Shown piece by piece: positions 16,122 through 30,339 of a stretch of 34,945 bases of DNA. Origin of the DNA: a virus. A program made the position numbers and the translations under genes. The stretch spans positions 1-34,945 of IMG/VR virus record IMGVR_UViG_3300005533_000230, one strand, 5' to 3'. Numbering within the stretch: position 1 is the stretch's first letter; every line of letters starts with the position of its first letter. The notes under the pieces are model-generated. The model saw only the letters and a program-made list of their open reading frames with translations. It was not told the origin of the DNA and ran no database searches.

Positions 16122-17351
16122 TTCCGGAATACGCTCCAATACCCCGACCTCCTTTTCCAGAGCAAGGTACCCGCAGGCCACCACCACCAAAAAAATGGTC
16201 AGGACTTCGCTGTCGCCGAGGTTCACTTCAGCCAACCCCTCCACCATGGTTGCAATGACGACGGCAATGGCGCCCTGCAGGATAAAGCGCCGATCGCGCC
16301 GGCCGGGTGGCAAGCGTTGGAGACCGTGCCAGAAATCGTAAAGAACCGTTAGCAGCAGCCACACCAGCACCAGCATGGTGAGAATGCCCCGCTCGGCGGC
16401 GTATTGCAGGTAAATGTTGTGAAGGTGCCCGTACCATCCATCGGGGAGCGTGGTGCCCGCGGGGACGTAATCCTTGAAATGATACTTGATGCCTTCCGGT
16501 CCTACGCCCAGAATCGGGTGCCGTTCAATAATGCGAATCCCCGTGGTCCAGGTGACGACGCGAAACTCATTGGAATCGACACCCTGCTTTGGCCGCAGCA
16601 GCGAAGTAAAGCGCTCGCGCACGGCTCCCGGCGAAAGCAGGAACACCAGCGCAGCCGCGACAGGAGCCAGTGCCACCAGCGAGCGTCTGTAGAACCAAAG
16701 CAGGTAGACACTCGCGACCGCGCTCGCCACCCAGATACTGCGCGTGAACCCCAGCAGCAGCGCCAGCGCCATGACGCCCGCGCACAACAACCACACCCAA
16801 CCGCGTCTGCGGCTGACCGGGCCGAAGAACAGAAACGCCGTGAGCATCAGTAAGGCAAACATTTCCTGGCCCGAGAATGTCATCCAATGGCTCATGAAGC
16901 CGGTCATACGCTCGGCGGGCGCGTAATAGTCGTAGAATTTGATCCCGAGCGCGTGAGCTTCCTTGACCTTTCCAACGAACTGCACGAACCCGCGCACGGC
17001 AATCAGCGCGCCCACTCCCGCCCAACTGAGAACCAGCCGCCGGACGATCCGCAGGTCGCGGAAAGTTGAGGTCACGACCAGCAGCATGAGGAAGACATAA
17101 AACTTCCGGATCTGCGGCAGGCCGTTCGCGAGTTCTCCTGAAAAGAGCCAGGCGATCACGGTGCCCACCACGAACAGTCCGAGCGGCAGTTTGATGGGCG
17201 GCCAGCGTAACTTCTCGCCCGAAAGCAGGAGCGCCGCCAATGCCAGCCCCAGCAGGATTTGCGCAATGGCGATCGAGAGCAGGATGGCCACCGCCGACCC
17301 GAAGGTCAGCCACTGCGCGGCGCGAAACATCCGGGATTCGGGCTGGCTCAT
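16098..17351 (-). CDS. O-antigen ligase/polymerase-like membrane protein
   Basis: A 417-residue inner-membrane protein with around ten to twelve hydrophobic segments (for example FGSAVAILLSIAIAQILLGL and LVLVWLLLTVLYDF). The large periplasmic loop at about 255-330 contains RIIERHPILGVGPEG and GHLHNIYLQYAAERG; this H-N-x-Y-L-Q-x(2)-E-x-G block is the hallmark of the Wzy/WaaL (Wzy_C) family, which joins or polymerises lipid-linked O-antigen. The start overlaps the hydrolase stop by 4 bases, so the two genes form an operon. It is host rather than phage in type. The 24-bp 3' overlap with the tail gene is noteworthy: phage-derived and host genes directly interlock here. Confidence 0.85.
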   Translation of the reverse strand: MSQPESRMFRAAQWLTFGSAVAILLSIAIAQILLGLALAALLLSGEKLRWPPIKLPLGLFVVGTVIAWLFSGELANGLPQIRKFYVFLMLLVVTSTFRDLRIVRRLVLSWAGVGALIAVRGFVQFVGKVKEAHALGIKFYDYYAPAERMTGFMSHWMTFSGQEMFALLMLTAFLFFGPVSRRRGWVWLLCAGVMALALLLGFTRSIWVASAVASVYLLWFYRRSLVALAPVAAALVFLLSPGAVRERFTSLLRPKQGVDSNEFRVVTWTTGIRIIERHPILGVGPEGIKYHFKDYVPAGTTLPDGWYGHLHNIYLQYAAERGILTMLVLVWLLLTVLYDFWHGLQRLPPGRRDRRFILQGAIAVVIATMVEGLAEVNLGDSEVLTIFLVVVACGYLALEKEVGVLERIPESAAQLHG

Positions 17352-18304
17352 TTCGACAAACCTTCAGTATGGCGCACAATCCAATCCAGAATCGTTTCGT
17401 CCAGCCAGAAGCGATGCGGCCGGCGTCCCAGGAATCCCAAATGTCCGCCGTGCTCGGTCACCAGCCGTTGCAGTGACGGATTGCTCCGCTCCAGCGCGCC
17501 GGCGCAACTCTCGAACGGTACCAGCGTGTCGTCCTTGGAGTGGATCAGCAGCGCCGGAATCCGAATGTCCTCCAAATAGCCCATGGCGGACTGAGTCCGG
17601 TAGTAATTGGCGGCGTTCCCGAAGCCGAACGACGGTGCGGTGATCCGGTCGTCGATTTCCCGCACCGATCGCAAACGCGCCAGGTTGGCTTGTTCGTACC
17701 GTCCGGTGGCGCGCAGACGCGCCCGCATGTGCCGCACGAAACGGTGATGGTACAGCCAGTTGTCTGGCTGCTCCATACGCCGCGAACAGGCATCCAGATC
17801 GAGAGGCGTCGAGACCGCGCATACTCCGCGAATCCATTGCGCCGCCGATTCACCCAATTCTCCGGCAAGCTTCAACACCACATTGCCGCCCAGCGAGAAG
17901 CCCACCAGGAACACTGGTCCGCGGCTGTCTCGCTGGAGTCCGCGCAAAACCTCGGCCAAGTCGCTGGTCAACCCGGCATGATAGAGGGTGTGAGACAAAC
18001 GCTCAGTGCCGCCGCACGTGCGCATATGGAAGCGGTGCGCCGCGAACCCCGCTCGCAGGGCTGCTCCACTCAAGCCGCGGACATAGCCGGCTGCTCCCGA
18101 TCCCTCCAGCCCGTGCACCAGAACGATGTCGCCCCGGCAAGGGCCCTCCGGGCACTGCGATTCCACCAGCACCCGAATCCCAGGCTCAGTGTCGTAGATC
18201 CGCCGCCGCAGGGGAAAACGGTCTTCTTCCCCATCTCGCTTCCACAGGTGCGCCATTACTGTCTGCAAATGCGGATTCCGGAACAGTGGCTCAAAAGGGA
18301 TCAT
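17348..18304 (-). CDS. YheT-family alpha/beta hydrolase
   Basis: Start chosen at the ATG giving MIPFEPLFRNPHLQTVMAHL, because N-P-H-L-Q-T is the conserved beginning of the YheT (UPF0017) family; the 29 residues encoded further upstream look like non-coding DNA. The 318-residue product has LVHGLEGS (oxyanion side), GFSLGGN with nucleophile S137, IHSKDDTLVP with the acid at about D258, and EHGGHLGFLG with H285 or H288. Substrates in this family are poorly known (esterase or lipase-like activity). It is the first gene of the host pair with the O-antigen ligase-like gene. Confidence 0.85.
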   Translation of the reverse strand: MIPFEPLFRNPHLQTVMAHLWKRDGEEDRFPLRRRIYDTEPGIRVLVESQCPEGPCRGDIVLVHGLEGSGAAGYVRGLSGAALRAGFAAHRFHMRTCGGTERLSHTLYHAGLTSDLAEVLRGLQRDSRGPVFLVGFSLGGNVVLKLAGELGESAAQWIRGVCAVSTPLDLDACSRRMEQPDNWLYHHRFVRHMRARLRATGRYEQANLARLRSVREIDDRITAPSFGFGNAANYYRTQSAMGYLEDIRIPALLIHSKDDTLVPFESCAGALERSNPSLQRLVTEHGGHLGFLGRRPHRFWLDETILDWIVRHTEGLSK

Positions 18305-18412
18305 CGAAGCGGCGGCAGCCTGTAGTATAAGATAATGTCTGTTATATCGTGAGGTCAGTTTTTCGGGCTTTTTTCGTTCCCGAGTGGGCAAAAGTGGACA
18401 AAACGCCGAACC
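18305..18412. other. Integrase-proximal boundary region (candidate attachment site)
   Basis: The 108 bases between the host hydrolase start and the integrase stop are AT-richer than their surroundings. They contain a TATAA/TTATA dyad at about 18327-18345 and a T-rich tract. An inverted 8-bp pair CGTGAGGT (18348-18355) and ACCTCACG (18410-18417) spans the interval and could be integrase arm sites. This is where host and element meet, so an att core is expected here, but the other end of the element is not in the window and no direct repeat could be matched. Confidence 0.4.
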
Positions 18413-19543
18413 TCACGCCCTCTTTTTCATCTTGACGACCTTCCCCGACAGCCTTGCATCCAACTCCTCGACTCCGGCCTGTTGCCGCGGCGCGATTGGC
18501 TTCCGGTAAACGCGCATCGTCAAATCGAGCGTGCTGTGGCCGAGGATATCCTGAGCGTCACGCGGATCGCCGTTGTAGAGCGTGGCGAAAGTCGTTCGGC
18601 ACATCCGGAAAGTGAGGTCTGGTATACCAGCGGCTTTGCGGGCGCGGTTTAGCATCGGTGAGACGGCCGCGCCGTTGCGCTGAAGCATTGAACCATCCGC
18701 CGCGGAAAAGAGTAGCTCACCACTCACTGTTCCGGTCCAGTCCTCCAGTTCATGGCGAAGCGACACGGGAAGCCGCGCGAATCTGGTTTTGCCGTTCTTT
18801 GTGCGCGCCGCCTGGCCCTCGAAGGCGGATTCATCGATGCACAAGCCCTCGGGCTGAACATCGGATTTTGTGAGCGCGAGCACCTCGCCGATGCGCGCGC
18901 CGGTCATCACCAGGACGCGCCACATGAGACGATCCCGCCCGGTGGTCGATTCCCAAAGCCGCCTCACTTCGCTCTCATTCAGGCTCCGCGTTTCTTTCGG
19001 CTTCGTGCAGCTCTTTGGCACTGTGACCTTGTACGCGGGGTTCTTGGGAATGTAATCGTTTTCCGTAGCGTAGGCGAACAGCGAGTCTAACAGAGCGCGC
19101 GCAAGGCGCACCGTCGCGCGAGAACGGCCGGAGTTCGCCATCGTCACAAGCACAGTTTCGACGTGGTGCCTCTTGACGTTCTGAAGCTCGACGGCGCCAA
19201 GCGCCGGCTGGATGTGGGTTTTCCAGGAGGATTCGTACGCCCGCCGCGAGTTTGGCTCAAGTTTCCCCTGATGGATCGGGTAGTAGATCTCCTTCCAAAA
19301 TGTCTCGACAGTTAACGAGCCATCTGCCTTCAGCCCGCCTCGTTCCTGGTCTCGTAGAAGCGCATCGAACTGCGCTTGCGCTTCGGTTTTCGTAAACTGC
19401 GCCCGGCTCCAGGTTTTGGACTTGTGCCGGGAACGCTGCTGACCGTCCGCGCCGACGTAGTACTGTCTCCACTCGGCTTTCCACAATTTCTCGCGCGTAC
19501 CGGTCGCATACACTTCCGGCCGCTGGTGTTTCTGTCTGGGCAT
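18413..19543 (-). CDS. int: Tyrosine recombinase/integrase
   Basis: Start chosen at MPRQKHQRPEVYATG because a strong GGGAGGAG ribosome site precedes it; an in-frame ATG 51 bases upstream lacks one. The 376-residue protein has an AP2-like N-terminal arm-binding region, a core-binding SAM-like domain (about 78-170) and a catalytic domain with R217 (TGARIGEVLAL), K249/K252, R316, H336 (LGHSTLD) and nucleophile Y346. The usual box II His (HxxR) is Arg here (R313-M-C-R316), an uncommon but known substitution. It is the last gene of the replication/tape-measure/excisionase operon and faces the presumed attachment site. Confidence 0.9.
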   Translation of the reverse strand: MPRQKHQRPEVYATGTREKLWKAEWRQYYVGADGQQRSRHKSKTWSRAQFTKTEAQAQFDALLRDQERGGLKADGSLTVETFWKEIYYPIHQGKLEPNSRRAYESSWKTHIQPALGAVELQNVKRHHVETVLVTMANSGRSRATVRLARALLDSLFAYATENDYIPKNPAYKVTVPKSCTKPKETRSLNESEVRRLWESTTGRDRLMWRVLVMTGARIGEVLALTKSDVQPEGLCIDESAFEGQAARTKNGKTRFARLPVSLRHELEDWTGTVSGELLFSAADGSMLQRNGAAVSPMLNRARKAAGIPDLTFRMCRTTFATLYNGDPRDAQDILGHSTLDLTMRVYRKPIAPRQQAGVEELDARLSGKVVKMKKRA

Positions 19544-19594
19544 GCTCCTCCCTTTGGCTTTCAGTAGCCGGGGGAGGCTGTCGGATTGTATCAT

Positions 19595-19807
19595 TCAGGC
19601 GCGCTCCAGTGACTTGATAAAATCGAGAATCGCCTCCAGTCGGAAACGTACGCACTTCCCGAGCTTCACGGACGGAATAGCCGGCCGTCGCATGCCGTTC
19701 GAGTGCTGGCGTACCCATGCTTCCGACATGCCGAGCATCGCCGCCACTTCGCCGACATCGAGCAAGCGGCCAACGGTTGGCAACACTGCAGTAATGGTCT
19801 GACTCAT
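19595..19807 (-). CDS. xis: Excisionase-type HTH protein
   Basis: A 70-residue MerR/HTH_17-type DNA-binding protein: LLDVGEVAAMLGMSEAWVRQ (recognition helix at about 17-36), then PAIPSVKLGKCVRFRLEAIL, the wing with the K-L-G-x(2)-V-R-F pattern. Such proteins bend DNA at att sites to direct excision. Start chosen at the ATG at 19807, which follows AGGTGA; a GTG at 19816 directly abuts the tape measure stop and has no ribosome site. Its placement 51 bases before the integrase supports the excisionase role, though a regulator function is also possible. Confidence 0.8.
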   Translation of the reverse strand: MSQTITAVLPTVGRLLDVGEVAAMLGMSEAWVRQHSNGMRRPAIPSVKLGKCVRFRLEAILDFIKSLERA

Positions 19808-19816
19808 CGTGTTCAC

Positions 19817-22108
19817 CTAGGCAGGCAGCCGTAGACGGCCGTCGCGGAATGCCCTCTTTAGCGCATCCGAATTTCGCATTACGGAATCCGGGCTCTCTCC
19901 AGGCGCGGCATGGTAATTGATTTGTGTTCCTATTCCGCCATTTCCTCCGCCACTGAGCGCCTGCTCAAACCTTGACGTTTGATCCTTGGTCAGCACCCTC
20001 TCGCCCTCGTGAACAAGCTTGATGCCTGTCCTCGGCACAACGCCGCCCTGCTCGAACGTGGCGAGCGACATCGCGCCGGCGAACGTCGCAGCGGCGACCA
20101 CTGGCGCGAGGACCACATTGACCGGAAACGGCACGGCTTCATACACAGACTTGAAAGCATGGACAGCCGAAGACTTCGCCTGTATCAGCGCCTGCTTTTC
20201 GGCCGAGGTGCGCATGATCGCGTCACTCAGCAGGCGCTGCGTTTGCATGCGTATCAGGTTGAGAATGAAATCATCAGCCATCTTTCGAAATGACGCGCTC
20301 AGCGCCGCGCCGAAGCTCTTTTGGTGTTCGAGCATTTGACTGAAGGCGGAAGTGAAGGCTGTAGAGACATCGCCGACCTGCTTGCGCATCGTGGTTACCC
20401 ACGAGAACTTTTGCGCCTGCTGATTCAATTGCTCCAGCGCGTGAGCGTGCGCGTCCGCAAGCTGCTGGAGCTGCGCTTGTGCCTGTATGGCCTCTGGCGA
20501 TCCGGCGCCGTTCTTTGCAACCGCGTCGTTATAGCGGGCAGAAGCCACCGCCGTCTCGGCAGCATACGCAGCCTGCTCGATCTGCCGAAGTAGCGCGATC
20601 TCCTGCTGTCCACTAATAAGCCCGAGGGATAGCGCTTCGTGGATTCTGGCCTCCTGCAGGCTGCGCATGCGCTGCTCGTGAGAGATCTGCGCAGACTCAA
20701 CCTCGCGGCGCGCTTCTTCCTGCCTGCGGCGACCTTCTTCTTGCAGTCGTCCGAGGGAGTCACTGCCATCTTTTACTGCTTTTTGGTAATCAACAAACTC
20801 AGTGGTTGCCGCACCCCACTCATCCGTGATGGTCATCACCGTGCCGCGATTGAACTCTTCCGTGAGCTTTGCTGCTTCGTCGGCGAACTGGCGGAGCCGC
20901 TTTTCGGCATCCGCGGCCAGCTCGTCGGCCGTTTTGCCGTAGTCGAGGCGGGCTTTCTCCTGCCCTGCATTCAGCTTTGCTAACTCCGTGTCGGTCCGTT
21001 CACCTGGCTTGGCGTATCGCAGCATGATTGCCTTGCGCCGTTCCAGCGCCTCAATCTCCACGTTCATCTTCTGCTCAGCCGCCGCTTGGAGGTCTGCCAG
21101 TTCGCGAGCTGAGGAGATTTGCTGGAGGCTGAAAAGCGTGTCGATCGCATGCTTGCGGGCATCGATCTCCTGGAGCTGCGAGTCTTTGACGATTTCGAGC
21201 TGCTCCAGAGCGCGCGCCTTGGCATCATCACGAAGCGCTACACGGTCTTTGATGTCTCCCACCTGCCGAGCGCCGCTCGCATGCACCACGGCTATACGTG
21301 CCTCGTCGTACTCCTTCTTCGCCTGATCGAGGAGCATCTGAATTTTTTCGCGGTCACTGTGCTGCGAAACCAACGCACCGGCAGCCGCGAAAACGTCGCG
21401 TTGTTGCGTCGGATCATAGGCCGACTTCAGTTGTTTCAGATCGGCACTCAGCGCCAGCATGCGTTGCTGGGCCTCGTGTTGCCGTTTCAGCGCATCCAGG
21501 AGATCCTGATTCCGGCTCTCGGCTTCGCCTGCTATCTTTGCGGCGCCCTCTCGGCCCTCCGTGAGCTTGGCACGGTTAACCGCAGTCGCCGCCTCTTCAG
21601 TCGCTTTCTGTAGCTCATGGACAAATTGAATGCTCTCTCTGAAATCCTTCTTGGCCTCCTCGTTCCAACCATGGAGCTTGTCGATTCCGTCCTGCAGCTT
21701 CTTTGGAAGTTCGGCGAGCACCTCGACCAGACCGTAAACCATGATCGGTGTAAACGCGGCGGTCATCACGGCCTGCACTGGTCCCATGCTCGACAACCAG
21801 GTGGCGATTCCGCGCGGCAGCCTAATGCCAATTTCGCTTCCCAGCTCGCGCATCGCGTGCTGGGACTCTCGCGCTTCGCCTGCGTGGCGCCGATGAGCTT
21901 CGCTACCTTTGCGCAGCGCCTCTTCCATCGTGCCGAGCTGCCCCTTGAGGCCCTCGACTTCCGTGCGCATGGCCGACATCGCCGCTTCGAAGTCGGCCTG
22001 CATCTTCGCGGTGTTCTGCTCGACCACCTGGGCGGCCTTGGGGAATCCAGACTGGAATCCGTCAAGGTATACCGCAGTGCTGATACTCAGTGTGTTGTTG
22101 TCTGGCAT
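19817..22108 (-). CDS. Long tape-measure-like protein
   Basis: Start set at MPDNNTLSISTAVYLDGFQS, where family resemblance begins; the open frame extends 45 codons further but lies in the upstream gene. The roughly 763-residue protein is mostly coiled coil (about 60-125, 210-480, 490-600). A hydrophobic segment lies at about 125-160 (IATWLSSMGPVQAVMTAAFT). The C-terminus is typical of tape measures: SFGAALSASFRKMADDFILN, FEQGGVVPRTGIKLVHEGER and VLTKDQTSRFEQAL. If functional as a tail ruler it predicts a tail near 115 nm. It sits in an operon with replication genes upstream and excisionase/integrase downstream, an odd place for a late tail gene, and no tail tube or chaperone is nearby. Confidence 0.75.
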   Translation of the reverse strand: MPDNNTLSISTAVYLDGFQSGFPKAAQVVEQNTAKMQADFEAAMSAMRTEVEGLKGQLGTMEEALRKGSEAHRRHAGEARESQHAMRELGSEIGIRLPRGIATWLSSMGPVQAVMTAAFTPIMVYGLVEVLAELPKKLQDGIDKLHGWNEEAKKDFRESIQFVHELQKATEEAATAVNRAKLTEGREGAAKIAGEAESRNQDLLDALKRQHEAQQRMLALSADLKQLKSAYDPTQQRDVFAAAGALVSQHSDREKIQMLLDQAKKEYDEARIAVVHASGARQVGDIKDRVALRDDAKARALEQLEIVKDSQLQEIDARKHAIDTLFSLQQISSARELADLQAAAEQKMNVEIEALERRKAIMLRYAKPGERTDTELAKLNAGQEKARLDYGKTADELAADAEKRLRQFADEAAKLTEEFNRGTVMTITDEWGAATTEFVDYQKAVKDGSDSLGRLQEEGRRRQEEARREVESAQISHEQRMRSLQEARIHEALSLGLISGQQEIALLRQIEQAAYAAETAVASARYNDAVAKNGAGSPEAIQAQAQLQQLADAHAHALEQLNQQAQKFSWVTTMRKQVGDVSTAFTSAFSQMLEHQKSFGAALSASFRKMADDFILNLIRMQTQRLLSDAIMRTSAEKQALIQAKSSAVHAFKSVYEAVPFPVNVVLAPVVAAATFAGAMSLATFEQGGVVPRTGIKLVHEGERVLTKDQTSRFEQALSGGGNGGIGTQINYHAAPGESPDSVMRNSDALKRAFRDGRLRLPA

Positions 22109-22127
22109 CTTCTTAGATCCTGTTTCT

Positions 22128-22520
22128 TTAGGCGTTTGCCCCGCGAGCCGCCGCCCGCGCGGAGTCAGTGATTGAACGCAACGCTTGACCGCGCGCGCAC
22201 TGGCAGCGGTCTGCGCCATTTTCCGTGATAACCCAGTACCCACTGTTGCAGGCGTTACAGCCAGGTGGTAGCGATGTATCTCCGGGTCGGCGAACCGCCT
22301 TCGATAGCTTCACCAGGTCTGCCACCTTGGGAGCTGCGGTCTCGGTGGTCAGCCATGCGTTAATCATGGCCTTGGCGTGCTCGTGGTTCGCCGATACGAC
22401 GTGTAGCCTTTCGATCAGTAGTCTCCGCACCTCGGCGTCGGCAGGGAAGTAGTCGAGGCCGCTGCAGAGCCGTATCAGCCGTTTGCAGAAATCGCAATCG
22501 CTATTACCGGGTTCCATTTG
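22128..22520 (-). CDS. Small zinc-finger protein of the replication operon
   Basis: Start chosen at MEPGNSDCDFCKRLIRLCSG because GGAGG lies 7 bases upstream. The 130-residue protein has an N-terminal CDFC pair followed by a helical region (ADAEVRRLLIERLHVVSANH) and a C-terminal zinc ribbon (GCNACNSGYWVITENGADRC then QC). It overlaps the replication initiator stop by 17 bases, so the two are translationally coupled. Position after an O-like initiator is where phages keep helicase loaders or accessory replication proteins; no AAA motif is visible, so a direct loader is not supported. Confidence 0.65.
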   Translation of the reverse strand, partial: QMEPGNSDCDFCKRLIRLCSGLDYFPADAEVRRLLIERLHVVSANHEHAKAMINAWLTTETAAPKVADLVKLSKAVRRPGDTSLPPGCNACNSGYWVITENGADRCQCARGQALRSITDSARAAARGANA

Positions 22521-23436
22521 CCACCTCCGATGAGCACTCTGCCAGCACGGAAGGGTCCGGACCGCCATAATCCCAGGATTTATCGATCTCAGCCTGTTTG
22601 TGGTCTTGCGCGGTCATTGCCCGCGGCCAGTCGCCCTCCCAGCGGTCCTTGCTCTGCTCGAACAGCCACTTGTCGGCGTTCGCAATGGCGCCGCGCGCCA
22701 CTTCACCAGAGGCAAGATACCGTTGCAAACAACCGAATACGGCCTCTTCGTTCTCCACCGTGACAACACTCACCCAGGCCATGCCCGCCGCGTCCTTCCG
22801 CTGCTTTCGTGGATAGCGCCCCCAGAACTCCTCGAATCGCTGGCTGGGCTGCCCCTCCAGATCGGCAGCTCTCGGCGGTTTTGACGACACACACACTGGA
22901 GCATTTGTGTGTGTGTGTTTGATATTCGCTAATTGATAATCGACAGTGACAGTGACAGGGATGTTTTCGCGATCGCCATTCGATCGCTCTGGAATCGCTT
23001 CGTGATCGCTACTTGATCGCTCAGCGATGGGTTCGTGATCGCTTAGCGATGGCGTTTTGCTCGGTTCGGCATCGGGTACTCGATCTCTCCCCCAGCGCTT
23101 TTCGTTTCCGCGCTTGCCAGATTCGGAGCGCTCAACCTGGTATTTGTTCTTTGCGTCCCTCAGTTCCTCAACCTTGCGATTTGTCAGCCGGCCGTCTGCC
23201 GTGCGCACGAAGCACGGCGCCAGCGCCGGCCATATCGTCCGCTCAAACTTCCGCGGCGCCATGTTCTTCGCGATAGCGGCCAGCTTGGCCATATCGTCCG
23301 GTATCGATCCCTCCTGCCAGCAAAGCCAGAGTAGCCGTTGATAGGCGGCCTCTTGCTCAAGGCTCATGACCATCACGTTTTCGTCGGCGTAGTGGTCCCG
23401 CCCATACCAGGGCATGTGTGGTGCTTTCTCTTTCAT
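22504..23436 (-). CDS. DUF1376-type phage replication initiator (O-like)
   Basis: Start at MKEKAPHMPWYGRDHYADEN, with AGGAGG 7 bases upstream. Residues about 8-105 match the DUF1376 pattern (MSLEQEAAYQRLLWLCWQEG, GSIPDDMAKLAAIAKNMAPR, ADGRLTNRKVEELRDAKNKY), a winged-helix-like domain of phage replication proteins. A linker of three 11-residue repeats (consensus S-x(2)-D-H-E-x-I-x-E-R, 126-159) follows, and then a C-terminal domain (RFEEFWGRYPRKQRKDAAGM, 200-270) like that used by O-type proteins to recruit helicase. The DNA of the linker is a phased 11-bp repeat array, the presumed origin. The C-terminus overlaps the zinc-finger gene. Confidence 0.8.
   Translation of the reverse strand: MKEKAPHMPWYGRDHYADENVMVMSLEQEAAYQRLLWLCWQEGSIPDDMAKLAAIAKNMAPRKFERTIWPALAPCFVRTADGRLTNRKVEELRDAKNKYQVERSESGKRGNEKRWGRDRVPDAEPSKTPSLSDHEPIAERSSSDHEAIPERSNGDRENIPVTVTVDYQLANIKHTHTNAPVCVSSKPPRAADLEGQPSQRFEEFWGRYPRKQRKDAAGMAWVSVVTVENEEAVFGCLQRYLASGEVARGAIANADKWLFEQSKDRWEGDWPRAMTAQDHKQAEIDKSWDYGGPDPSVLAECSSEVANGTR
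22887..22917. repeat. (AC)5/(GT)5 hairpin beside the origin array
   Basis: Ten-base perfect arms ACACACACAC and GTGTGTGTGT separated by TGGAGCATTT lie in the replication gene, immediately beyond the AT-rich tract. The arms could extrude or fold in single-stranded DNA and mark the origin edge. Confidence 0.55.
22918..22943. other. AT-rich tract, possible DNA unwinding element
   Basis: A stretch of 26 bases about 73% A+T (TTTGATATTC and AATTGATAAT) lies between the hairpin and the repeat array inside an otherwise GC-rich gene. This is where an unwinding element would sit in a lambda-like origin. Confidence 0.5.
22960..23058. repeat. Nine-unit 11-bp iteron array (candidate replication origin)
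   Basis: Units begin at 22960, 22971, 22982, 22993, 23004, 23015, 23026, 23037 and 23048, exactly 11 bases apart. The core is GATCGC at 22971, 22982, 23004, 23015 and 23037, AATCGC at 22993, and weaker GATGxx at the others. An 11-base period is not a codon multiple, so the repetition is selected at DNA level; the encoded protein repeats only every 33 bases. Phasing near one helical turn puts all sites on one face of the DNA. As in lambda O, the array lies in the middle of the initiator gene and is followed by an AT-rich tract. Function as ori is inferred. Confidence 0.75.
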
Positions 23437-23480
23437 GGCGGTGCCTCCTTGCAGCAACCGTTTCCCCTTGGCTTCGAGCG

Positions 23481-23550
23481 TGAGTAGCCGTCACCGGGCA
23501 AGGGTTCCGGCGTGTCTCGCCGCCGGCCAGCGGCGATAGACGGCTACTCA
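23481..23550. repeat. 12-bp perfect inverted repeat in replication leader
   Basis: TGAGTAGCCGTC (23481-23492) pairs perfectly with GACGGCTACTCA (23539-23550) across 46 bases that can fold further (CGCCG/CGGCG). It forms a long closed stem in RNA from either strand. Confidence 0.6.
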
Positions 23551-23557
23551 TTGCATG

Positions 23558-23602
23558 CCGGAAAAATCCCGCGGCACTTTGGTAAGCACGATGTTTTTCC
23601 GG
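23558..23602. repeat. 9-bp perfect inverted repeat in replication leader
   Basis: CCGGAAAAA (23558-23566) pairs with TTTTTCCGG (23594-23602) around a 27-base loop. It lies next to the 12-bp repeat, giving two consecutive stem-loops ahead of the initiator gene. Confidence 0.55.
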
Positions 23603-23651
23603 TCTGGCAGGTCGAATGACGCATACCTTCGGTCGCGGATGAGATGTGCAT

Positions 23652-23682
23652 AAAAAAGGCCGAGCAGTTCGCCTGCTCGGCC
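23652..23682 (-). terminator. Rho-independent terminator after the 287-aa gene
   Basis: On the - strand a perfect 10-bp stem GGCCGAGCAG/CTGCTCGGCC with a five-base loop is followed by six T residues. It ends the transcript that comes from the gene at 23832-24695 and separates it from the replication operon. Confidence 0.9.
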
Positions 23683-23831
23683 CGGACAAAAAGCAGTTAC
23701 ACGATCCACGACACAGAACAAAAGAGGGGCACAGGTGGAAAGGTGACCCGCGCCCCTTTGGGTGCAGTGGTGCCAAGGAGAAGCGCCTCACGCGCCTGGC
23801 CCGATTGGCCGGCACCGCCACAAAGCTATTA

Positions 23832-24695
23832 TTACCAACCAAACCAAGCGAACGGTTGGAGGCCATAATTCCGGTACGGCGCTGGCCACCACCGAGGTGA
23901 TCCACGCCTGCGGTCAGCCTCGATCTTCTCCAGGATCGCGCTGGCCTCCGCTTCCGTTAGCAGGTCGTGATGCTCGCGCGCGATTTTCAGGAGCAGGTGG
24001 GGGTAATATTCTCCAACACCGCGCAGGATGTGCCGCTGAACCAGTGTGCCAGCGATTAAGCCATCGGCACCAGAATAGAAATCGGCAGGAGGGTTATGCA
24101 CGATGGCGGCCGGCAGAAAGAGGTCCGGGAGCCCCGCTCGCCTCTTTATGGTGCGACCATCGCTCAGCGTGACGGCCTCGGGGTAGCGCTTGTTCGCCGC
24201 GGCAAACTGCGCAAATAGCGCATCATGCGATTTCACGAGCACCAACAGGTCCACCACATACTTTTCGACGGCGAGCTCATAATGGGCTTTCATCAGCTCA
24301 GCCTCCAGGAACTCCCGCTCCTCAGCCAGTTCCTTCGTCAGCGCGCCGAGGCCCTCATCAGTATCCGGATTTGACTCCCGGCAAGCTTGCGCCGCCTGGA
24401 GCGCATCGCGATCGGCCTTCACGCGCTCCCGCGCCGAAGCGATTTGCTCGGGCGTGGCGTGTGGGTCCTTGTACAGACCCTCCATGGCTGCCTGTGACAG
24501 CGTCAGCTTAGCGCTTTCATCTGCGATGACCTGTTTCTGGGAAGCCAGCTGGCGGTAGCGCGCCGCGTAATCCTCGATCTCAGCACGGTTGCGTGCGAGC
24601 CTCTCCCGGAGAAGCTCCGGAATGGTGGCTGGGTCTGATTTGGAAAGATCGACGGCGGAATCGGCCGATCTCTCCCGTGGTCGAGATTTGAACAT
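23832..24695 (-). CDS. Coiled-coil protein of unknown function (287 aa)
   Basis: I do not recognise this protein. Residues about 20-165 are helical and highly charged, likely a long coiled coil (ATIPELLRERLARNRAEIED, ERVKADRDALQAAQ, ELAEEREFLEAELMKAHYEL). The C-terminal half is mixed (AVTLSDGRTIKRRAGLPDLF, LVQRHILRGVGEYYPHLLLK) and ends in an aromatic tail RWWPAPYRNYGLQPFAWFGW. There is no signal peptide and no nuclease motif. A good GGAGA ribosome site precedes the ATG. It is the third gene after the HTH protein at 25047 and its transcript ends at the strong terminator 23652-23682. A cytoplasmic early-phage or structural role cannot be distinguished. Confidence 0.7.
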   Translation of the reverse strand: MFKSRPRERSADSAVDLSKSDPATIPELLRERLARNRAEIEDYAARYRQLASQKQVIADESAKLTLSQAAMEGLYKDPHATPEQIASARERVKADRDALQAAQACRESNPDTDEGLGALTKELAEEREFLEAELMKAHYELAVEKYVVDLLVLVKSHDALFAQFAAANKRYPEAVTLSDGRTIKRRAGLPDLFLPAAIVHNPPADFYSGADGLIAGTLVQRHILRGVGEYYPHLLLKIAREHHDLLTEAEASAILEKIEADRRRGSPRWWPAPYRNYGLQPFAWFGW

Positions 24696-24717
24696 GATAT
24701 GTCTCCTTCAGAGTTAA

Positions 24718-25050
24718 TTATTGGCAAGCGTTGGCAAGAACTTCCGACACGTTGCCGGCGCCGCGCTCCCTGGCGGGCGCTGCCGGTAAGAGCTGGAGGC
24801 GGTCATAAACTTTCGTAATGCGGTCGTTGCTCACACTGCCGCCCTCGTCGCGCGAGTACGCCGCGAATGCGAGGCTCAGGTCGTCAAGCTGCTTCGCGAT
24901 GTCTTCGCGGCCCAACCCCCGGAGGTCGCGCGCCAACAGGGCAGTGCGATCAGAGAGGCGCTGGGTTGCGGTCGTGATCTCCCGGCTAATGGCCTTCGCG
25001 ATCGCGTCGGCGCGCTCGGCTGTAATGTACGCAATAGATTGACGTCTCAT
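24718..25050 (-). CDS. Small helical protein, unknown function
   Basis: A 110-residue mostly helical protein (ERADAIAKAISREITTATQR, RDLRGLGREDIAKQLDDLSL) with a mixed C-terminal tail. No known motif is recognised. Its ATG overlaps the stop of the HTH protein gene (ATGA) and GGAG lies upstream, so the pair is translationally coupled and probably works together, for example as a DNA-binding protein with a partner. The next gene follows 22 bases later with its own ribosome site. Confidence 0.65.
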   Translation of the reverse strand: MRRQSIAYITAERADAIAKAISREITTATQRLSDRTALLARDLRGLGREDIAKQLDDLSLAFAAYSRDEGGSVSNDRITKVYDRLQLLPAAPARERGAGNVSEVLANACQ

Positions 25051-25286
25051 GTGAAAGACTCCTTTGAGGGTGTCGCCGGCCTACTCTCCGGCTGGACGAT
25101 TCGGGCCTGTAACCACGCCAGGACACCGCGCGTTATAAGGTAGATTCGCCCGCGACGGTTACCGGTGCGAATCCAGGGTGGCGCTGAATTGGACTTGAGC
25201 ATTCGGCGGGCGGTGGACAAGCTAATACCGGCCACCCTCGCGAACTCGCTTAGAGTCATTAACTCTTCATGTTGCTGCTGCATCAA
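25047..25286 (-). CDS. HTH DNA-binding protein (excisionase/MerR-like)
   Basis: A 79-residue protein with LMTLSEFARVAGISLSTARR (helix-turn-helix at about 9-29) and a wing with NRRGRIYLITRGVLAWLQAR. It is the same broad class as the excisionase at 19595-19807 but not a close copy. It heads a small operon with the helical genes downstream. The ribosome site is TGGAGG. A perfect 13-base palindrome at 25346-25358, about 60 bases upstream, may be its operator, so it could be an autoregulated early regulator. Confidence 0.75.
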   Translation of the reverse strand: MMQQQHEELMTLSEFARVAGISLSTARRMLKSNSAPPWIRTGNRRGRIYLITRGVLAWLQARIVQPESRPATPSKESFT

Positions 25287-25345
25287 AACCTCCAGTTGAG
25301 TCGTTGGCAGGACTTTGGGTTGGCTTTAAAAGGGATTCGCCTAAT

Positions 25346-25358
25346 CGGCCAGTGGCCG
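25346..25358. promoter_or_regulatory. Palindrome CGGCCAGTGGCCG, candidate operator
   Basis: Two 6-base arms CGGCCA and TGGCCG flank a central G upstream of the HTH gene at 25047-25286. Size and position fit a repressor dimer site. No binding protein is proven, and GC-rich palindromes of this size occur by chance. Confidence 0.4.
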
Positions 25359-25432
25359 GTTGGTGCACGTCAATGAGGTTATTGAACGCTCTTGAGCGCT
25401 TCTGGTATATGCACGCATTCACGAGGTCTTTT

Positions 25433-25867
25433 TTATAACCCCCCATGGCAAATTTTTTTTATCTTCGCCAGAGCCCTGCGCAGGAGCTTATTGACCGCTG
25501 GCTGAGAAATCCCCATTCGGGCCGCGACCTCCATCTCTGTCATGCCGTCCTGGTACATCAGGCGAATGACATCCTGCTGTTTTTGGGGGAGGCCGCTAAC
25601 GGCATCCCAGATTTTCGGCAAAAGCTGTTGGTGGGTCGAAGGCTCAGCCCTGAACTCGGTGAATTCGAGTTCTGCGGTGCGGTTCTCGGCGACCCATTGT
25701 CTCCGGGCTTCGTTACGGCAGGCATGCTGCACAAAACGCTGTAGCTCATTCCCGGATAGCCCCCGCTGTTGGCCGACAATCAAAGCCAGATTACCTTCAC
25801 TGGCAACGTCTTCGATCGACTTTGACCGAATGCCTTTCAGGGCGAACTTTATGATGGAGGAGTTCAC
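25433..25867 (-). CDS. Sigma-70 region 4-like transcription factor
   Basis: Start chosen at the GTG at 25867, preceded by AAAGGAG; the frame is open further but overlaps the upstream gene. The 144-residue protein has a helical N-terminus (EGNLALIVGQQRGLSGNELQ, FVQHACRNEARRQWV, vaguely region 2-like) and a clear sigma region 4 helix-turn-helix at 92-137 (LPQKQQDVIRLMYQDGMTEM, AARMGISQPAVNKLLRRALA). It may direct RNA polymerase to phage late or middle promoters. Its gene starts 28 bases after the upstream unknown gene. Confidence 0.7.
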   Translation of the reverse strand: MNSSIIKFALKGIRSKSIEDVASEGNLALIVGQQRGLSGNELQRFVQHACRNEARRQWVAENRTAELEFTEFRAEPSTHQQLLPKIWDAVSGLPQKQQDVIRLMYQDGMTEMEVAARMGISQPAVNKLLRRALAKIKKICHGGL

Positions 25868-25895
25868 GAGCTCCTTTCGTGTTGTGGCGCGTACC

Positions 25896-26459
25896 TCAGC
25901 GCGAGCAGCGGATTGAGAATTGGCTTGGCGTTCCCTCAGACCATGGCTGCGACTCGTCGCGCTTAACGAACAGGATCGCTGGCGGATGCCGCGGGGCCGT
26001 GGCGGCCTTCGCAGGAATCTCAGCAATATTCACTGTCAGGCCCTCTCGCGTGGCACAAATCGTTTGGTGGCAACGTAATGGAGCGATATCGATAGGCGCT
26101 CGGTTGGCGGACGCTGACCAGTGTGACCGTACCCGGGGGCCGCGGATCATTTTGAAACTCCATGGCCTAGCACCCGTATTATTGCCGCATCCCAGCGCGA
26201 TATCCGGCGCCACAATCGGCGTGCTGGCCATCGCAGAGCGACTGGCGAGCCCGCCGGCTGCCGCGCGATCGTATCCTGCCATGGAAATCCGCGCGGCTCG
26301 CGCAGCGGTTTTGTGGGCGAAATCCGATTCTACGAATCGGATCAAGACTCCCGGTTTGACCCATTCCGCCTGGCCCTTCCTGACGTACCGTTCGGCGCGC
26401 TTCAGCGAAGTGCGCCCATGCCCGCTCACCGCGTTCGCGATTTTAATTTCGTTTGACAT
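25896..26459 (-). CDS. Protein of unknown function with basic N-terminal domain
   Basis: Start chosen at MSNEIKIANAVSGHGRTSLK, which follows AAGGAAAGG. The 187-residue product has a compact N-terminus (RAERYVRKGQAEWVKPGVLI, R-x(2)-Y-V-x-[KR]-G-x-A) that looks like a small conserved phage domain, and a low-complexity remainder rich in alanine, arginine and proline with no clear fold. The C-terminal half is weakly supported as protein, although the frame stays open and the sigma-like gene begins right after the stop. Function unknown. Confidence 0.5.
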   Translation of the reverse strand: MSNEIKIANAVSGHGRTSLKRAERYVRKGQAEWVKPGVLIRFVESDFAHKTAARAARISMAGYDRAAAGGLASRSAMASTPIVAPDIALGCGNNTGARPWSFKMIRGPRVRSHWSASANRAPIDIAPLRCHQTICATREGLTVNIAEIPAKAATAPRHPPAILFVKRDESQPWSEGTPSQFSIRCSR

Positions 26460-26572
26460 ACACCTTTCCTTACATGACCCTTGGCAGGAAGTCCCTATCG
26501 GGACGATATCGGAGTTAGTGATCTTTCGCGACCACTCCCGACAATCCAAAATACGCTATAGGCACGGCTCAT

Positions 26573-26589
26573 AAAAAAGGCTAGGGCCT
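26573..26589 (-). terminator. Weak hairpin with T-tract overlapping a stop codon
   Basis: On the - strand AGGC and GCCT pair around a four-base loop and five to six T residues follow. The stem is only 4 bp and overlaps the stop codon of the 239-aa gene, so this is at best a weak terminator. Confidence 0.3.
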
Positions 26590-27308
26590 CACTGTGTATG
26601 GATTTTTTTCAGGCCCAGCGTAGCCAGGAGTCTTTTTGCAGCAGTGGTGATCTGGCCCGCACCGCACCTGTTTGGATTGTGCCGGCGGGATTTGTGAATC
26701 TCACGATACCGCATCCCTTCGCAGTAATGAAGGGCAGCCCAGCGCAGCCGCATGGCATTGTCAGCGCGTGTCTGTTTGGATTCGCCGGGTGACATGTCAC
26801 GGCGGGATTGCGGCACTAGGACCACAAATCCGTTCTTCTGTGCTTCTCTAATCCGTGCATTGCAATCCTTAGCACATCGGCTTGCATGCTTTCGAAAAAG
26901 GATCGTTGCACGCTGAATATACGTTTCCGCGGTGTCTCGTCTTACATCGAACGGCGGTAGTTTAAAATATCCCGGCTCGATGGTCAGCGAATGGCCGGAG
27001 AGGGATGGTATGTCGCCCCATCGCGGCCAGCGGCTCTCTGGAATCTCCAACTCTCGACACGCTTGGAGAAACTGAAACCGCAGGGTGCTAACCCTGGAAT
27101 CCGATTCAAAAATCGATAGATTTCGAATGTGGCCAGTGGCGAGATCGTTACTGGAGCTGTCGCTCGGCTCCGGGCTGCGCGCGAGTGAAATGGCCGGAAT
27201 CTTGCCGGCCATGACATTTTGAACAAACTCCATCGCCTCTTTAGTGATCTGTGGCTGTATCGGATTCGTTCTGGGTTGATCGCCCAGCGGCTTAGCTTTT
27301 TTGGCCAT
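26589..27308 (-). CDS. Unknown protein downstream of a repeat-operator array
   Basis: A 239-residue protein that I do not recognise. The N-terminus is polar and probably flexible (1-60); the middle has RFQFLQACRELEIPESRWPR; residues about 125-160 form a basic helix pair with two cysteines (LFRKHASRCAKDCNARIREA). The C-terminus (MRLRWAALHYCEGMRYREIH, then TAAKRLLATLGLKKIHTQ) has a helix-turn-helix feel with spaced basic residues. Upstream lie four clear TGTTYCA[CT] repeats and a weak fifth spaced 11-12 bases. That architecture, and a sigma-like factor downstream, suggest a transcriptional regulator, perhaps the lysis-lysogeny or late switch; this is inference. Confidence 0.6.
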   Translation of the reverse strand: MAKKAKPLGDQPRTNPIQPQITKEAMEFVQNVMAGKIPAISLARSPEPSDSSSNDLATGHIRNLSIFESDSRVSTLRFQFLQACRELEIPESRWPRWGDIPSLSGHSLTIEPGYFKLPPFDVRRDTAETYIQRATILFRKHASRCAKDCNARIREAQKNGFVVLVPQSRRDMSPGESKQTRADNAMRLRWAALHYCEGMRYREIHKSRRHNPNRCGAGQITTAAKRLLATLGLKKIHTQ

Positions 27309-27342
27309 CGTGCACCCAGTTTATTGTTCAAGAGCCACAGTG

Positions 27343-27397
27343 TGTTTCACGGCTGTTTCACGGATGTTCCACCTGGTGTTCCATGTAATCCTCACGG
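27343..27397. repeat. Phased TGTTYCAC operator array (about 11-bp period)
   Basis: TGTTTCAC at 27343-27350, TGTTTCAC at 27354-27361, TGTTCCAC at 27365-27372, TGTTCCAT at 27377-27384 and a weak copy sharing TCACGG at 27388-27397. Spacing is 11, 11, 12 and 11 bases, so sites fall on one DNA face. The array lies 35 to 90 bases upstream of the start of the 239-aa gene and likely binds a phage regulator. Confidence 0.65.
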
Positions 27398-27447
27398 ACC
27401 CCTGACGTTCCTTGTGCCTACTGCCAGGTGTGGTTTTATGTGTCATG

Positions 27448-27481
27448 CGCAATAGCGTACCGTTCAAGCCTGCCTATTGCG
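27448..27481. repeat. 8-bp inverted repeat upstream of the small basic gene
   Basis: CGCAATAG (27448-27455) and CTATTGCG (27474-27481) are perfect complements 18 bases apart in the intergenic segment between divergent genes. It may be a regulatory dyad; a T-run at 27491-27497 follows. Confidence 0.35.
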
Positions 27482-27538
27482 ATCCTTTTGGGCCGATTTT
27501 TTTCGAACTCCGACAAATGCTGAAGCCAAGCGTCGCTG

Positions 27539-27766
27539 ATGGCACGACGACGGCGCGAAGGAATGCGGCGAAATGTCGAGGGGCAGCCCGTGCCCGGATC
27601 GCAGCCGATCAGCGAGCGAAAGAGATGGGCGGAGTCGAAGCAGCAATCTGCTAGCAGCGTGCCGCGCGTGCGAAAAAAACGCAGACTGAGCGCTGCCGGT
27701 CGCCGCGCGATTATCGAAGCGACGAAACGCCGCTGGGCAGCAATCCGAGCTGCGCAGGGCAAGTAG
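27539..27766 (+). CDS. Small basic protein with LS-x(3)-R-x(2)-I-x(8)-RWA motif
   Basis: A 75-residue, very basic protein. Its C-terminus (RKKRRLSAAGRRAIIEATKR then RWAAIRAAQGK) matches a motif common in small histone-like or AT-hook-like proteins of Acidobacteria and phages and resembles the end of the protein at 29732-29947. No ribosome site precedes ATG 27539; GAAGGA abuts an internal ATG at 27563 instead. The gene is transcribed divergently from the 239-aa gene. A nucleic-acid binding role is plausible; function unknown. Confidence 0.5.
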   Translation: MARRRREGMRRNVEGQPVPGSQPISERKRWAESKQQSASSVPRVRKKRRLSAAGRRAIIEATKRRWAAIRAAQGK

Positions 27767-27904
27767 CCGCGCGCTCAGATGCTGCTAAACTGAATGACCC
27801 TTTGGGCGCGGTCGGGCGCTTGCTGTCGTACTAGAACCGGGAGACACGCCCTTCGGCCGCCGGCACTCCCCCGCGCCGGCCTGAAACATCGTATACTGTC
27901 GCCC

Positions 27905-28411
27905 ATGCGTCCAATTGAGCGGCCACTCTCAATTCTGCTTTGCTTCTTCTTTGCCAGCGCGCTCTCCGGTGCCGATAAGCAGACCAGCTATGCTGTTACG
28001 TACTCCGGTGGATCACTGCCAAACGTCAAGACCGGTGAGGTTTTCAGGATGTTCCTCGATCAAGACCAGATCCGCCTTGAACGCCATGGCGGCGGGAACA
28101 AAAACGAACCGCTCACCGTGCCGACCAAAATTGTTACGGAAGTCAATTTCGGCAATGAGGCCCATCGCCGCGTTGGGACCGCAATGGCATTGGCCGTGCC
28201 CACCCTGGGCCTTGGTACCCTGGTCGCCTTGAGCCACTCGAAGAAACACTATATCGGAATCGTGTGGGACGGCGGCGAAGGAAAGAAGGGCGGCATCGTC
28301 CTTCAGGCGGACAAGAATGAATACCGAGGCATCATTGCGGCCCTGGAGGGCCTCACCGGAAAGAAGGCGGTCAACACCGATACAACGCAATCCACCGTGG
28401 TTGTGGAATAA
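27905..28411 (+). CDS. Secreted protein of unknown function
   Basis: Start at MRPIERPLSILLCFFFASAL, a clear signal peptide with likely cleavage after about residue 21-22; no lipobox cysteine. The mature part has SYAVTYSGGSLPNVKTGEVF, KIVTEVNFGNEAHRRVGTAM, a short hydrophobic hairpin (ALAVPTLGLGTLVALS), KKHYIGIVWDGGEGKKGGIV and ADKNEYRGIIAALEGLTGKK. I remember similar proteins as common secreted or periplasmic proteins of Acidobacteriota, so this may be host-type cargo carried by the element. It has no enzyme motif. Convergent with the TIR gene. Confidence 0.7.
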   Translation: MRPIERPLSILLCFFFASALSGADKQTSYAVTYSGGSLPNVKTGEVFRMFLDQDQIRLERHGGGNKNEPLTVPTKIVTEVNFGNEAHRRVGTAMALAVPTLGLGTLVALSHSKKHYIGIVWDGGEGKKGGIVLQADKNEYRGIIAALEGLTGKKAVNTDTTQSTVVVE

Positions 28412-28499
28412 GCAGGACAGCGGAGTATCGTGAGGGCGTAAACCGACCGACGACACTCACGACATCTCCTCGGCCGCCCTGGCGGCTGTCAGCTTCTAA

Positions 28500-29759
28500 C
28501 TACAGTAACCGCGCCTCCGACAGAAAACGCTCGACTTCGCTCGCTATGATCGCATAGGGGCTCGGGCCTATCGTGGCGCGACCGCTCACCGTGACTAAGC
28601 TGGTTTCAGTCAACGGCTTGATTATCACTTCGTCGGGGTCTCGAAAATTAAGCTGAGCAAGGGCCTGAGAGATGGAGGAAATTGGCGCCCCGGGACTTCG
28701 ATAGACCAGTTGAAGTGCGACCCTTTGCCCCAGCGAAAGCCTCTGCAACTCTACGCCAGCCTGGTTAAGCATTAGAAAATCGCTTTGCGATGGGGGCGGT
28801 GCTTTGCGCGGCTCCTCGCCCTTCAGTTTGCCTGTTGCCTTTGCGAGAGCAGTTAATGAGTCCACATATTTCTTGTACCGCCAAGCGTCAGGCTTTGGTA
28901 GCGTCAGGCGCTCGGCAAGCTCTCCGATAAACTTCGCGATTGAGCCTGGATCGGAAGCGTTGATGGCATGAACGTTTCGGATTGGCTCGGGGAGTATGCT
29001 CGTATCTGCGCCTCCAGCCAACATTGAAAACAGGATTTTGCCCTGACCCCATCTCGCGCCCAACTCGAAAAGCACCCAATGCGACTCGACACTCGATGTC
29101 GTAATGAGCCCAATTAGGACTTTGGCCGCAAGCACTTCTGCGCGAAGCGTTTCCGGAGCGTCAACGCCAAAGGGCAGCGAGTACGCAAGGACACTTGTGC
29201 AACGTATATTGGAGGGCTCTATAGAAAGGGCGTTCCTCAAGAGGTCGGCGAGTGCCTCGGCGATGGGCTTATCTTGGCTGCTATGGCTAATGAAGCAAAG
29301 AATCCTTTCATGAGCGTTGCTGCCGGCGGGGGTCTGTTCATCAACGAAGACAGTAGTCGTCGCTGCTCCCAATGCTGAATTTTGCGGATTTAGTTCTCGC
29401 CTGATAAAGCCTAGCCACTCCTGGAGCTGCCGCATTTGCTCATCCCATGATCCAGCAAAAAGCTTTTCCGTCGCCACGTCCCGACCTGGACGCCTGACAG
29501 TCTGTCGTTGCCTGGATTCTCTTGAATCAGCGTAATCAGCTGTGCTGACGAAGTCGAACGCGAACATACTGTCGGTCTTGTGGTGGACCACCACGGGAAT
29601 TGACCAGTAATGCATATAACTGCTGTCGATCTTCCCGAAACCAAAATCAGAAATCTCGAATCCGGCCGCCCCTATGGCGGCTTCAATGGAGCGTTTCTGG
29701 CTCGCTAGCAGGTCTTCGAAGTGTTTGTCCACTATCGCTCGCCCGGCTCCTTTTTCCAC
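28500..29759 (-). CDS. TIR-domain protein, candidate antiphage/abortive effector
   Basis: A 419-residue protein. Residues 1-130 form an unrecognised alpha/beta domain (SSYMHYWSIPVVVHHKTDSM, DEQMRQLQEWLGFIRRELNP). Residues 153-290 are a TIR domain with FISHSSQDK (156-164), VLIGLITTSSVESHWVLFEL and the candidate catalytic E232 of NAD-cleaving TIRs. Residues 335-419 look like a winged-helix or small regulatory domain (LSLGQRVALQLVYRSPGAPI, IKPLTETSLVTVSGRA). TIR NADases act in antiphage defence and superinfection exclusion. The gene overlaps the upstream small basic gene by 28 bases (or by 1 base if GTG 29732 is used). NADase activity is inferred from the motif. Confidence 0.75.
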   Translation of the reverse strand: MEKGAGRAIVDKHFEDLLASQKRSIEAAIGAAGFEISDFGFGKIDSSYMHYWSIPVVVHHKTDSMFAFDFVSTADYADSRESRQRQTVRRPGRDVATEKLFAGSWDEQMRQLQEWLGFIRRELNPQNSALGAATTTVFVDEQTPAGSNAHERILCFISHSSQDKPIAEALADLLRNALSIEPSNIRCTSVLAYSLPFGVDAPETLRAEVLAAKVLIGLITTSSVESHWVLFELGARWGQGKILFSMLAGGADTSILPEPIRNVHAINASDPGSIAKFIGELAERLTLPKPDAWRYKKYVDSLTALAKATGKLKGEEPRKAPPPSQSDFLMLNQAGVELQRLSLGQRVALQLVYRSPGAPISSISQALAQLNFRDPDEVIIKPLTETSLVTVSGRATIGPSPYAIIASEVERFLSEARLL

Positions 29760-29947
29760 CTGGCCATCGCAGCTTTACGTGCGATCTCTTTACGTTGCGC
29801 CGTCGTGAGCTTTTTCGCGCGCGCAACACCCCCGGCTTTGCCGCCTTTGCGCCCAATTTCCGAAAGCGCATCTGGCGACAGATGTTCAGCCCGAGCCTTT
29901 CCGCCCAATCTGCCTAGCTTGACTGCTGCTGGATTTTTCCTGGCCAT
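29732..29947 (-). CDS. Small basic partner protein of the TIR gene
   Basis: A 71-residue lysine/alanine/glycine-rich protein with internal repeats: LGRLGGKARAEHLSPDALSE, IGRKGGKAGGVARAKKLTTA and QRKEIARKAAMARWKKEP. This repeated GGKA-R-A-x(2)-L-[ST] pattern is a known small-protein family in bacteria and phages, function unknown, probably nucleic-acid binding. Its stop overlaps the TIR gene start region, implying co-translation, so it could be a regulator or partner of the TIR protein. No clear ribosome site precedes the ATG; the gene starts 40 bases from a palindromic operator on the other strand. Confidence 0.7.
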   Translation of the reverse strand: MARKNPAAVKLGRLGGKARAEHLSPDALSEIGRKGGKAGGVARAKKLTTAQRKEIARKAAMARWKKEPGER

Positions 29948-29986
29948 CTGATTCCAAGCTTAACATAGCGCTTGCTCAAACATTGC

Positions 29987-30015
29987 TTGACTTAGCGCTA
30001 AGTCACGAATATAAT
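29987..30015 (+). promoter_or_regulatory. Strong sigma-70-like promoter overlapped by a perfect 18-bp palindrome
   Basis: The -35 box TTGACT (29987-29992), a 17-base spacer and the -10 box TATAAT (30010-30015) give an almost ideal promoter. The palindrome TGACTTAGCGCTAAGTCA (29988-30005) covers most of the -35 and part of the spacer. The start point expected 7 bases after the -10 box falls on the ATG at 30022. A repressor at the palindrome would block both this promoter and possibly the divergent TIR operon; AGCGCT recurs at 29967-29972. Confidence 0.8.
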
Positions 30016-30021
30016 TGTCGT

Positions 30022-30339
30022 ATGAACTGCTTCAGCGAATACGAAGATTTCGATAACTGCGCGGCGCGCGCGGATCTGCATGCTGCGGATCACGGCCCGG
30101 TGGAAGAACCCGAGCCGAAAGAGGACCCCCTCACCGGTGACCTGGCTCTACTGTACGCGGATGAGCAGGCGGCCTGCCTCGTGGCTGCCTACGAGCACGG
30201 CAGGTCGGAGGCGGAAATGCTCGCGTTGCTTCGGGCGCACGTTGCGGAATGCGCCCACTGCGGCAGCACGGCTAGGACGGTTCAGTCCGATCGGTTGGCT
30301 CTCAAGACCCCGGGCTCTGTTTGCTGCGAGGCCGCGTAA
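30022..30339 (+). CDS. Small protein, likely leaderless transcript
   Basis: The start is ATG 30022 (MNCFSEYEDFDNCAARADLH); the region before it is promoter with no ribosome site, so the mRNA is probably leaderless. The 105-residue acidic protein has a helical middle (DLALLYADEQAACLVAAYEH, GRSEAEMLALLRAHV) and an H-V-x(2)-C-x(2)-C motif (HVAECAHCG) that resembles anti-sigma zinc fingers. It begins a + strand set of small genes that overlap or abut one another. Function unknown. Confidence 0.65.
   Translation: MNCFSEYEDFDNCAARADLHAADHGPVEEPEPKEDPLTGDLALLYADEQAACLVAAYEHGRSEAEMLALLRAHVAECAHCGSTARTVQSDRLALKTPGSVCCEAA

Follow-up and report, generated by a model that had tools for sequence, protein, structure and literature searches.

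A phased 11-bp iteron array in the linker of a DUF1376 gene as a candidate phage replication origin

The DUF1376 gene and its surroundings

The window (the whole 34,945-nucleotide stretch of viral DNA that we analysed) carries an initiator-like gene with a repeat array in its linker-coding part (Table 1). In a Pfam profile search the encoded protein matched DUF1376 (PF07120) at 37.5 bits, above the curated cut-off of 30.1, and its PHROG matches were annotated as 'primosomal protein' and 'replication initiation protein'. AlphaFold2 modelled the DUF1376 domain confidently as a helical fold that includes a small beta hairpin; it predicted a disordered linker that overlaps the iteron array and the adjoining tract, and a helical C-terminal part with weak confidence. 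The top structural neighbours of the domain in Foldseek were winged-helix folds, namely the RuvB C-terminal domain and the plasmid initiator entries 4pta and 5kbj. Since no Foldseek match was significant (best E 0.016), this likeness is a mere lead; a search against the sequences of solved structures gave no credible match for the protein.

In many related phage records the gene that follows encodes a DnaC-like loader, a DnaB helicase or a DnaA-like protein, and 'replication protein P' also occurs among the neighbouring genes. The 146-residue downstream gene of the window occupies the slot that a helicase loader or helicase gene takes in other phages. It had no match in family searches (Pfam, PHROG), is not recognisably a helicase loader and shows no similarity to the 'replication protein P' of L166, one of the loci compared.

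Table 1. Coordinates of the features at the locus
Feature	Position	Strand	Remarks
DUF1376 initiator-like gene	22504-23436	-	310 aa, ATG at 23436; Pfam and PHROG matches
DUF1376 domain, residues 8-91	23164-23415	-	Pfam; AlphaFold2 pLDDT 90
Disordered protein linker, about residues 136-197	22846-23029	-	pLDDT below 50 (predicted)
Nine phased 11-bp units, AGCGATCxxxx on the gene strand	22960-23058	-	six good cores, three degenerate
GTCACT tandem repeat, 2.8 copies	22942-22958	-	lag-6 z 2.2
AT-rich tract, candidate unwinding element	22918-22943		73% A+T; base composition
(AC)6 run, gene strand	22906-22917	-	AC runs common in related loci
(GT)5 run, gene strand, second hairpin arm	22887-22896	-	unique to the window among 133 genes
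Downstream gene, 146 aa	22128-22568	-	directly 3' of the DUF1376 gene; no family match

The window as a whole appears composite (1-16121, 16098-18391 and 18413-34945). Plus-strand head and tail genes come first and are followed by host-like genes for an O-antigen ligase and an alpha/beta hydrolase, and then by an integrase gene and, on the minus strand, a second phage gene set that includes a terminase of its own. The integrase/excisionase genes are separated from the replication gene by a tape-measure-like gene (19817-22243), which is unusually placed for a tail gene, and a TIR-domain protein (PF13676) encoded at 28500-29759 is possibly a defence factor. Upstream of the DUF1376 gene there is a strong terminator-like hairpin on the minus strand (23657-23683), with an 11-bp stem and a T run. 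An Rfam search of the window returned no match, and its GC skew was uninformative.

Repeats, tract and hairpin in the linker-coding DNA

The initial annotation had described nine units recurring every 11 bp from position 22960, and we recovered its cores exactly where it had placed them (GATCGC at 22971, 22982, 23004, 23015 and 23037, AATCGC at 22993). The register holds throughout, with eight units starting GAT and one starting AAT; ATCGC is kept in only six. Two of the three degenerate units (at 22960, 23026 and 23048) contain an inverted half-site, with ATCGCT beside AGCGAT on the gene strand. Identity at a lag of 11 over 80 bp is 0.625 in the array; it averages 0.255 (sd 0.048) over the window and nowhere else in it exceeds 0.45. 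The array also has a 33-bp super-period (identity 0.69) that corresponds to an 11-residue repeat in the protein, which suggests that three units at a time were duplicated later with the reading frame kept.

For a null model we shuffled synonymous codons over the whole gene 2000 times, with both the protein and its codon usage preserved. None of the 2000 shuffles reached the observed lag-11 value (z 4.4, p 0.0005); lags 22 and 44 gave z scores of 4.9 and 5.1, and for the lags that are not multiples of 3 the family-wise p was 0.001. The 11-bp period is thus not caused by coding, as had been argued from the period alone, and the repeat array is real and no by-product of the protein sequence. Lambda gene O served as a positive control: at its annotated iterons the same method found lags 20, 23, 24 and 44, without any signal at lag 11.

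Reading down the gene, the iterons are followed by the GTCACT repeats, the AT-rich tract and the (AC)6 run. The A+T content of 0.73 annotated for the tract is correct, and 50 of the 34,920 26-bp windows reach this value. The (AC)5/(GT)5 inverted repeat is likewise exact and folds better than shuffled sequences (z -2.5). We nevertheless rejected the hairpin as a conserved part of an origin, because a (GT)n arm after the AC run is found only in the window, in one of the 133 DUF1376 genes surveyed below. AC runs of at least three units occur in 24 of the 25 related viral loci that form the window's nearest group (L122-L146), and runs of (AC)4 or longer in 10 of the 133 linkers.

Conservation among DUF1376 and Lin1244_N genes

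We first compared 25 viral loci related to the window gene and then added 240 loci through three protein-based scans; the non-redundant set comprised 133 DUF1376 genes collected by protein similarity. Since these sets were seeded from subgroups of DUF1376, the percentages describe the sampled groups and not the whole family. In the 25 viral relatives 11 bp was the best or near-best lag directly after the domain, and an 11-bp signal with different cores was present in genes of cultured phages (Pseudomonas, Bordetella, Moraxella, Sinorhizobium, Rhizobium and Vibrio). Across the 133 genes, lag 11 exceeded z 2 in 82 linkers (62%), in 15% of domain segments and in essentially no C-terminal segments. 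Homologues without 11-bp periodicity in the linker would have spoken against the initial annotation; with 82 linkers positive, it was not refuted. Lags 22 and 7 were positive in 37% and 38% of linkers, respectively, and at least one of the lags 7, 11, 14, 22 and 23 in the linkers of 116 genes, while no lag exceeded 5% positives in the C-terminal control segments. About a third of the genes have no strong lag-11 signal, some showing lag 7, 22 or 23 instead. The array starts a median of 9.5 nt past the end of the domain.

Blind 7-mer enrichment identified GTTCAAC as a common core, present in 45 linkers, 3 domain segments and 5 C-terminal segments; adjacent TTCAAC sites were 11 bp apart in 30 cases and 22 bp apart in 7. 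The window iteron, AGCGATC, differs from this core, and other DUF1376 genes have unrelated cores at the same place and with the same spacing. DUF1376 genes seem normally to carry an embedded array. The annotation of such an array as not commonly described stands insofar as we found no paper that describes one, and fails insofar as it implied rarity.

A second element follows the iterons. A 7-bp tract (CCAATAA, AACCATA) was found after them in 38% of the DUF1376 genes, and it lay 3' of the iterons in 32 of 32 genes having both. CCAATAA occurred in 42 linkers, no domain segment and 2 C-terminal segments, and its reverse complement in none, indicating a single strand orientation. The heptamer tract contains little G (0.12), and its A+T content is 0.62, against about 0.48 around it. 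Other DUF1376 groups have 6-bp tracts; the window has GTCACT rather than CCAATAA, and its GTCACT repeat is likely the counterpart of the short-repeat tract of its relatives.

Selection on the DNA itself was assessed in 14 relatives from L122-L143. Synonymous codon difference was 0.109 in the array and 0.394 in the flanks (p 1.4e-7), that is, about 3.6-fold fewer synonymous changes in the array. It was about 0.41 in the domain and stayed low after the array, through the tract and the AC run. Protein identity in the array region was not systematically above that of other regions. No other finding argues as strongly for an overlapping DNA element as this synonymous constraint.

We also searched from the DNA side, scanning viral DNA blindly for a GTTCAACG pair at 11-bp spacing (pattern GTTCAACGNNCGTTCAAC), which gave at least 120 places. 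Among the 120 places listed, 89 lay inside DUF1376 open reading frames, 81 of these on the sense strand, and inspection placed about 17 more in reading frames of another initiator-like type; all three of the latter that were tested matched Lin1244_N (PF14297). In a protein-based sample of 22 Lin1244_N genes, seeded from iteron-bearing members, lag 11 exceeded z 2 in 20, and a 5-bp AAAGT/AAAGG tract followed; the Lin1244_N linkers of L207, L283 and L529-L608, for example, carry CGTTCAACGAC 11-bp iterons and then this tract. From the scan and this sample together, DUF1376 and Lin1244_N share a core and a layout. A scan with the core spacing of the window (AGCGATCN4AGCGATC) was far less specific, with 5 of 119 places in DUF1376 reading frames.

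Two candidate relatives were set aside. The locus L002, initially the sole weak relative of the window protein, proved to be Lin1244_N-like with 22-bp iterons, and a Tissierellia locus, a single weak match in a genome-contig search, had no DUF1376 match. At 6069-6190 the Lin1244_N-like gene of L002 has its 22-bp iterons (CTATCGCAAATGCGAC) together with an AAAGT tract, and a RSEAGKRGNEKRWG segment is common to this gene and the window protein.

In 20 of the 133 genes, many of them of the Pseudomonas type, 11-bp repeats also occur in the domain-coding part. Many of these repeats match the linker core on the opposite strand (GTTGAAC), and all 13 adjacent pairs of GTTGAA sites in this cluster had 11-bp spacing. 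In L387, L396, L369 and L152, at about nt 155-200 of the gene, the inverted cluster (GTTGAACG) encodes a conserved segment of the W-T-D-V-E type. Near-perfect 11-bp arrays are present at L007:3877-4060 and in L104 (AGCGATGATTG, AGCGATCATTG) without an open reading frame of at least 60 codons over them.

Interpretation and comparison with known systems

Selection at the DNA level, a conserved place, 11-bp spacing, a fixed order relative to the tract and the tie to two replication-type families are all observed. We infer that a theta-type phage origin, with 22887-23058 as its core, lies within the linker-coding part of the gene for its initiator, and we assign this reading a probability of roughly 0.83. 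The linker survey, the synonymous constraint, the blind search and the lambda control all support the lambda-O-like origin that had been proposed for this gene. Binding by DUF1376, melting of the tract, recruitment of the helicase and origin activity are inferred, from the layout and by analogy with lambda and SPP1 (PMC7466680, PMC6316719); there are no binding or replication data.

In the proposed mechanism, neighbouring 11-bp iterons would each be occupied by a DUF1376 domain, all on a single face of the helix. The one-turn spacing, by placing all initiator copies on the same face, would yield a compact filament toward the tract. The bound initiator would then sit beside the short-repeat tract. 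This tract, poor in G and rich in A+T, would be the site of melting and perhaps also of single-strand binding, and the C-terminal part would recruit a helicase loader or helicase. In phages with a second cluster, the linker array and the inverted domain array would face each other. Chromosomal origins combine duplex binding with single-strand binding, a logic that the strand-specific tract resembles, and these phages may thus offer a minimal system for origin melting.

The synonymous constraint fits gene control and initiation alike, and nothing separates binding for the one from binding for the other. Intragenic repeats could serve as an operator or roadblock, so that the array might bind the initiator, or another phage regulator, in autoregulation of the gene or operon and not in origin firing. 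We regard this as unlikely: the array lies deep within the gene, the iterons always have on their 3' side a strand-specific short-repeat tract that is poor in G or rich in A+T, and both the layout, which is that of lambda O, and the replication-module context argue against it. The predicted disorder of the linker, the 33-bp duplication visible in the window and the 6- and 12-bp tracts, which could be coding repeats, would fit low-complexity DNA made by slippage and kept because a disordered linker tolerates repeats. Slippage in coding DNA should, however, favour periods divisible by 3, whereas 11, 7, 22 and 23 dominate; with the array's synonymous sites strongly constrained and the GTTCAAC core recurring in distant phages and in a second family, slippage is very improbable.

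The window cores resemble GCGATCGC, and the motif could in principle be a repeat scattered over the genome, as HIP1 is, or else an uptake or chi-like sequence. Across the whole window AGCGATC is about as frequent as chance predicts (8 found, 7.55 expected), so only its local clustering is unusual, and the unrelated cores at the same position in other DUF1376 genes do not fit such a repeat either. We consider this class of explanation scarcely tenable and rejected the HIP1-type version on the chance-level count.

Returning to a replication origin, we think it probable, with less assurance than for the window itself, that the locus belongs to a widespread bipartite class in which one-turn iterons and a strand-specific tract lie in the linker of the initiator gene. 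DUF1376 and Lin1244_N would share GTTCAAC within this class, and some phages would have a second, inverted GTTGAAC cluster at 11-bp spacing in the domain-coding sequence. Since most of the 133 genes share the placement of the repeats, it is now possible to test whether DUF1376 proteins, whose function is unknown, are initiators that bind origins. If the inference is correct, it would give a function to a large protein family, locate the start of replication in many temperate and environmental phages and make origins in viral contigs recognisable by a simple DNA signature. It would also be a case of two codes in one sequence, an in-frame protein linker and DNA sites every 11 bases.

Origins within initiator genes are already known. 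As far as the literature that we searched shows, the one-turn iterons, the strand-specific short-repeat tract, the assignment to DUF1376 and Lin1244_N and the breadth are new; we found neither a paper joining DUF1376 with an origin nor a description of such arrays, subscription journals being outside our coverage. We count gp38 and oriL of phage SPP1 among the nearest known systems. The phage-inducible chromosomal islands have origins with iterons and an AT-rich region beside the rep gene; there the AT-rich region has iteron sets on both sides, and these sets are located 3' of rep and outside the gene (PMC6092414). The Rac prophage of E. coli K-12 has a known active origin, oriJ (PMC3945230), whose position relative to ydaU is undetermined. 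The ydaU gene encodes a DUF1376 protein (92 bits), is followed by the DnaC/IstB-like gene ydaV, and its product aligns in the C-terminal part with O proteins of Gifsy phages. Its repeats are GTTCAA(A)C-like with mixed 33- and 23-bp spacing, unlike those of the window, and their statistics are weak and only suggestive (family-wise p 0.07).

A close parallel is lambda gene O with ori-lambda, in lambdoid and Stx phages, where iterons in the linker of the initiator gene are likewise followed by an AT-rich tract, and where the helicase-loading gene adjoins O (PMC7466680). The window shares with the lambda type the intragenic direct repeats selected at the DNA level and the AT-rich tract on the 3' side of the gene. 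It departs from the O family in its protein, which matches only DUF1376 and no O family in Pfam, and in its repeats: lambda iterons are 18 bp long and start 20-24 bp apart, about two helical turns, whereas those of the window are spaced by 11 bp, or one turn, and its type of tract consists of 5- to 7-bp tandem repeats, unlike that of lambda. The best reading of the locus is a distinct bipartite version of the lambda-like origin, its activity inferred, that combines one-turn iterons with a short-repeat unwinding tract.
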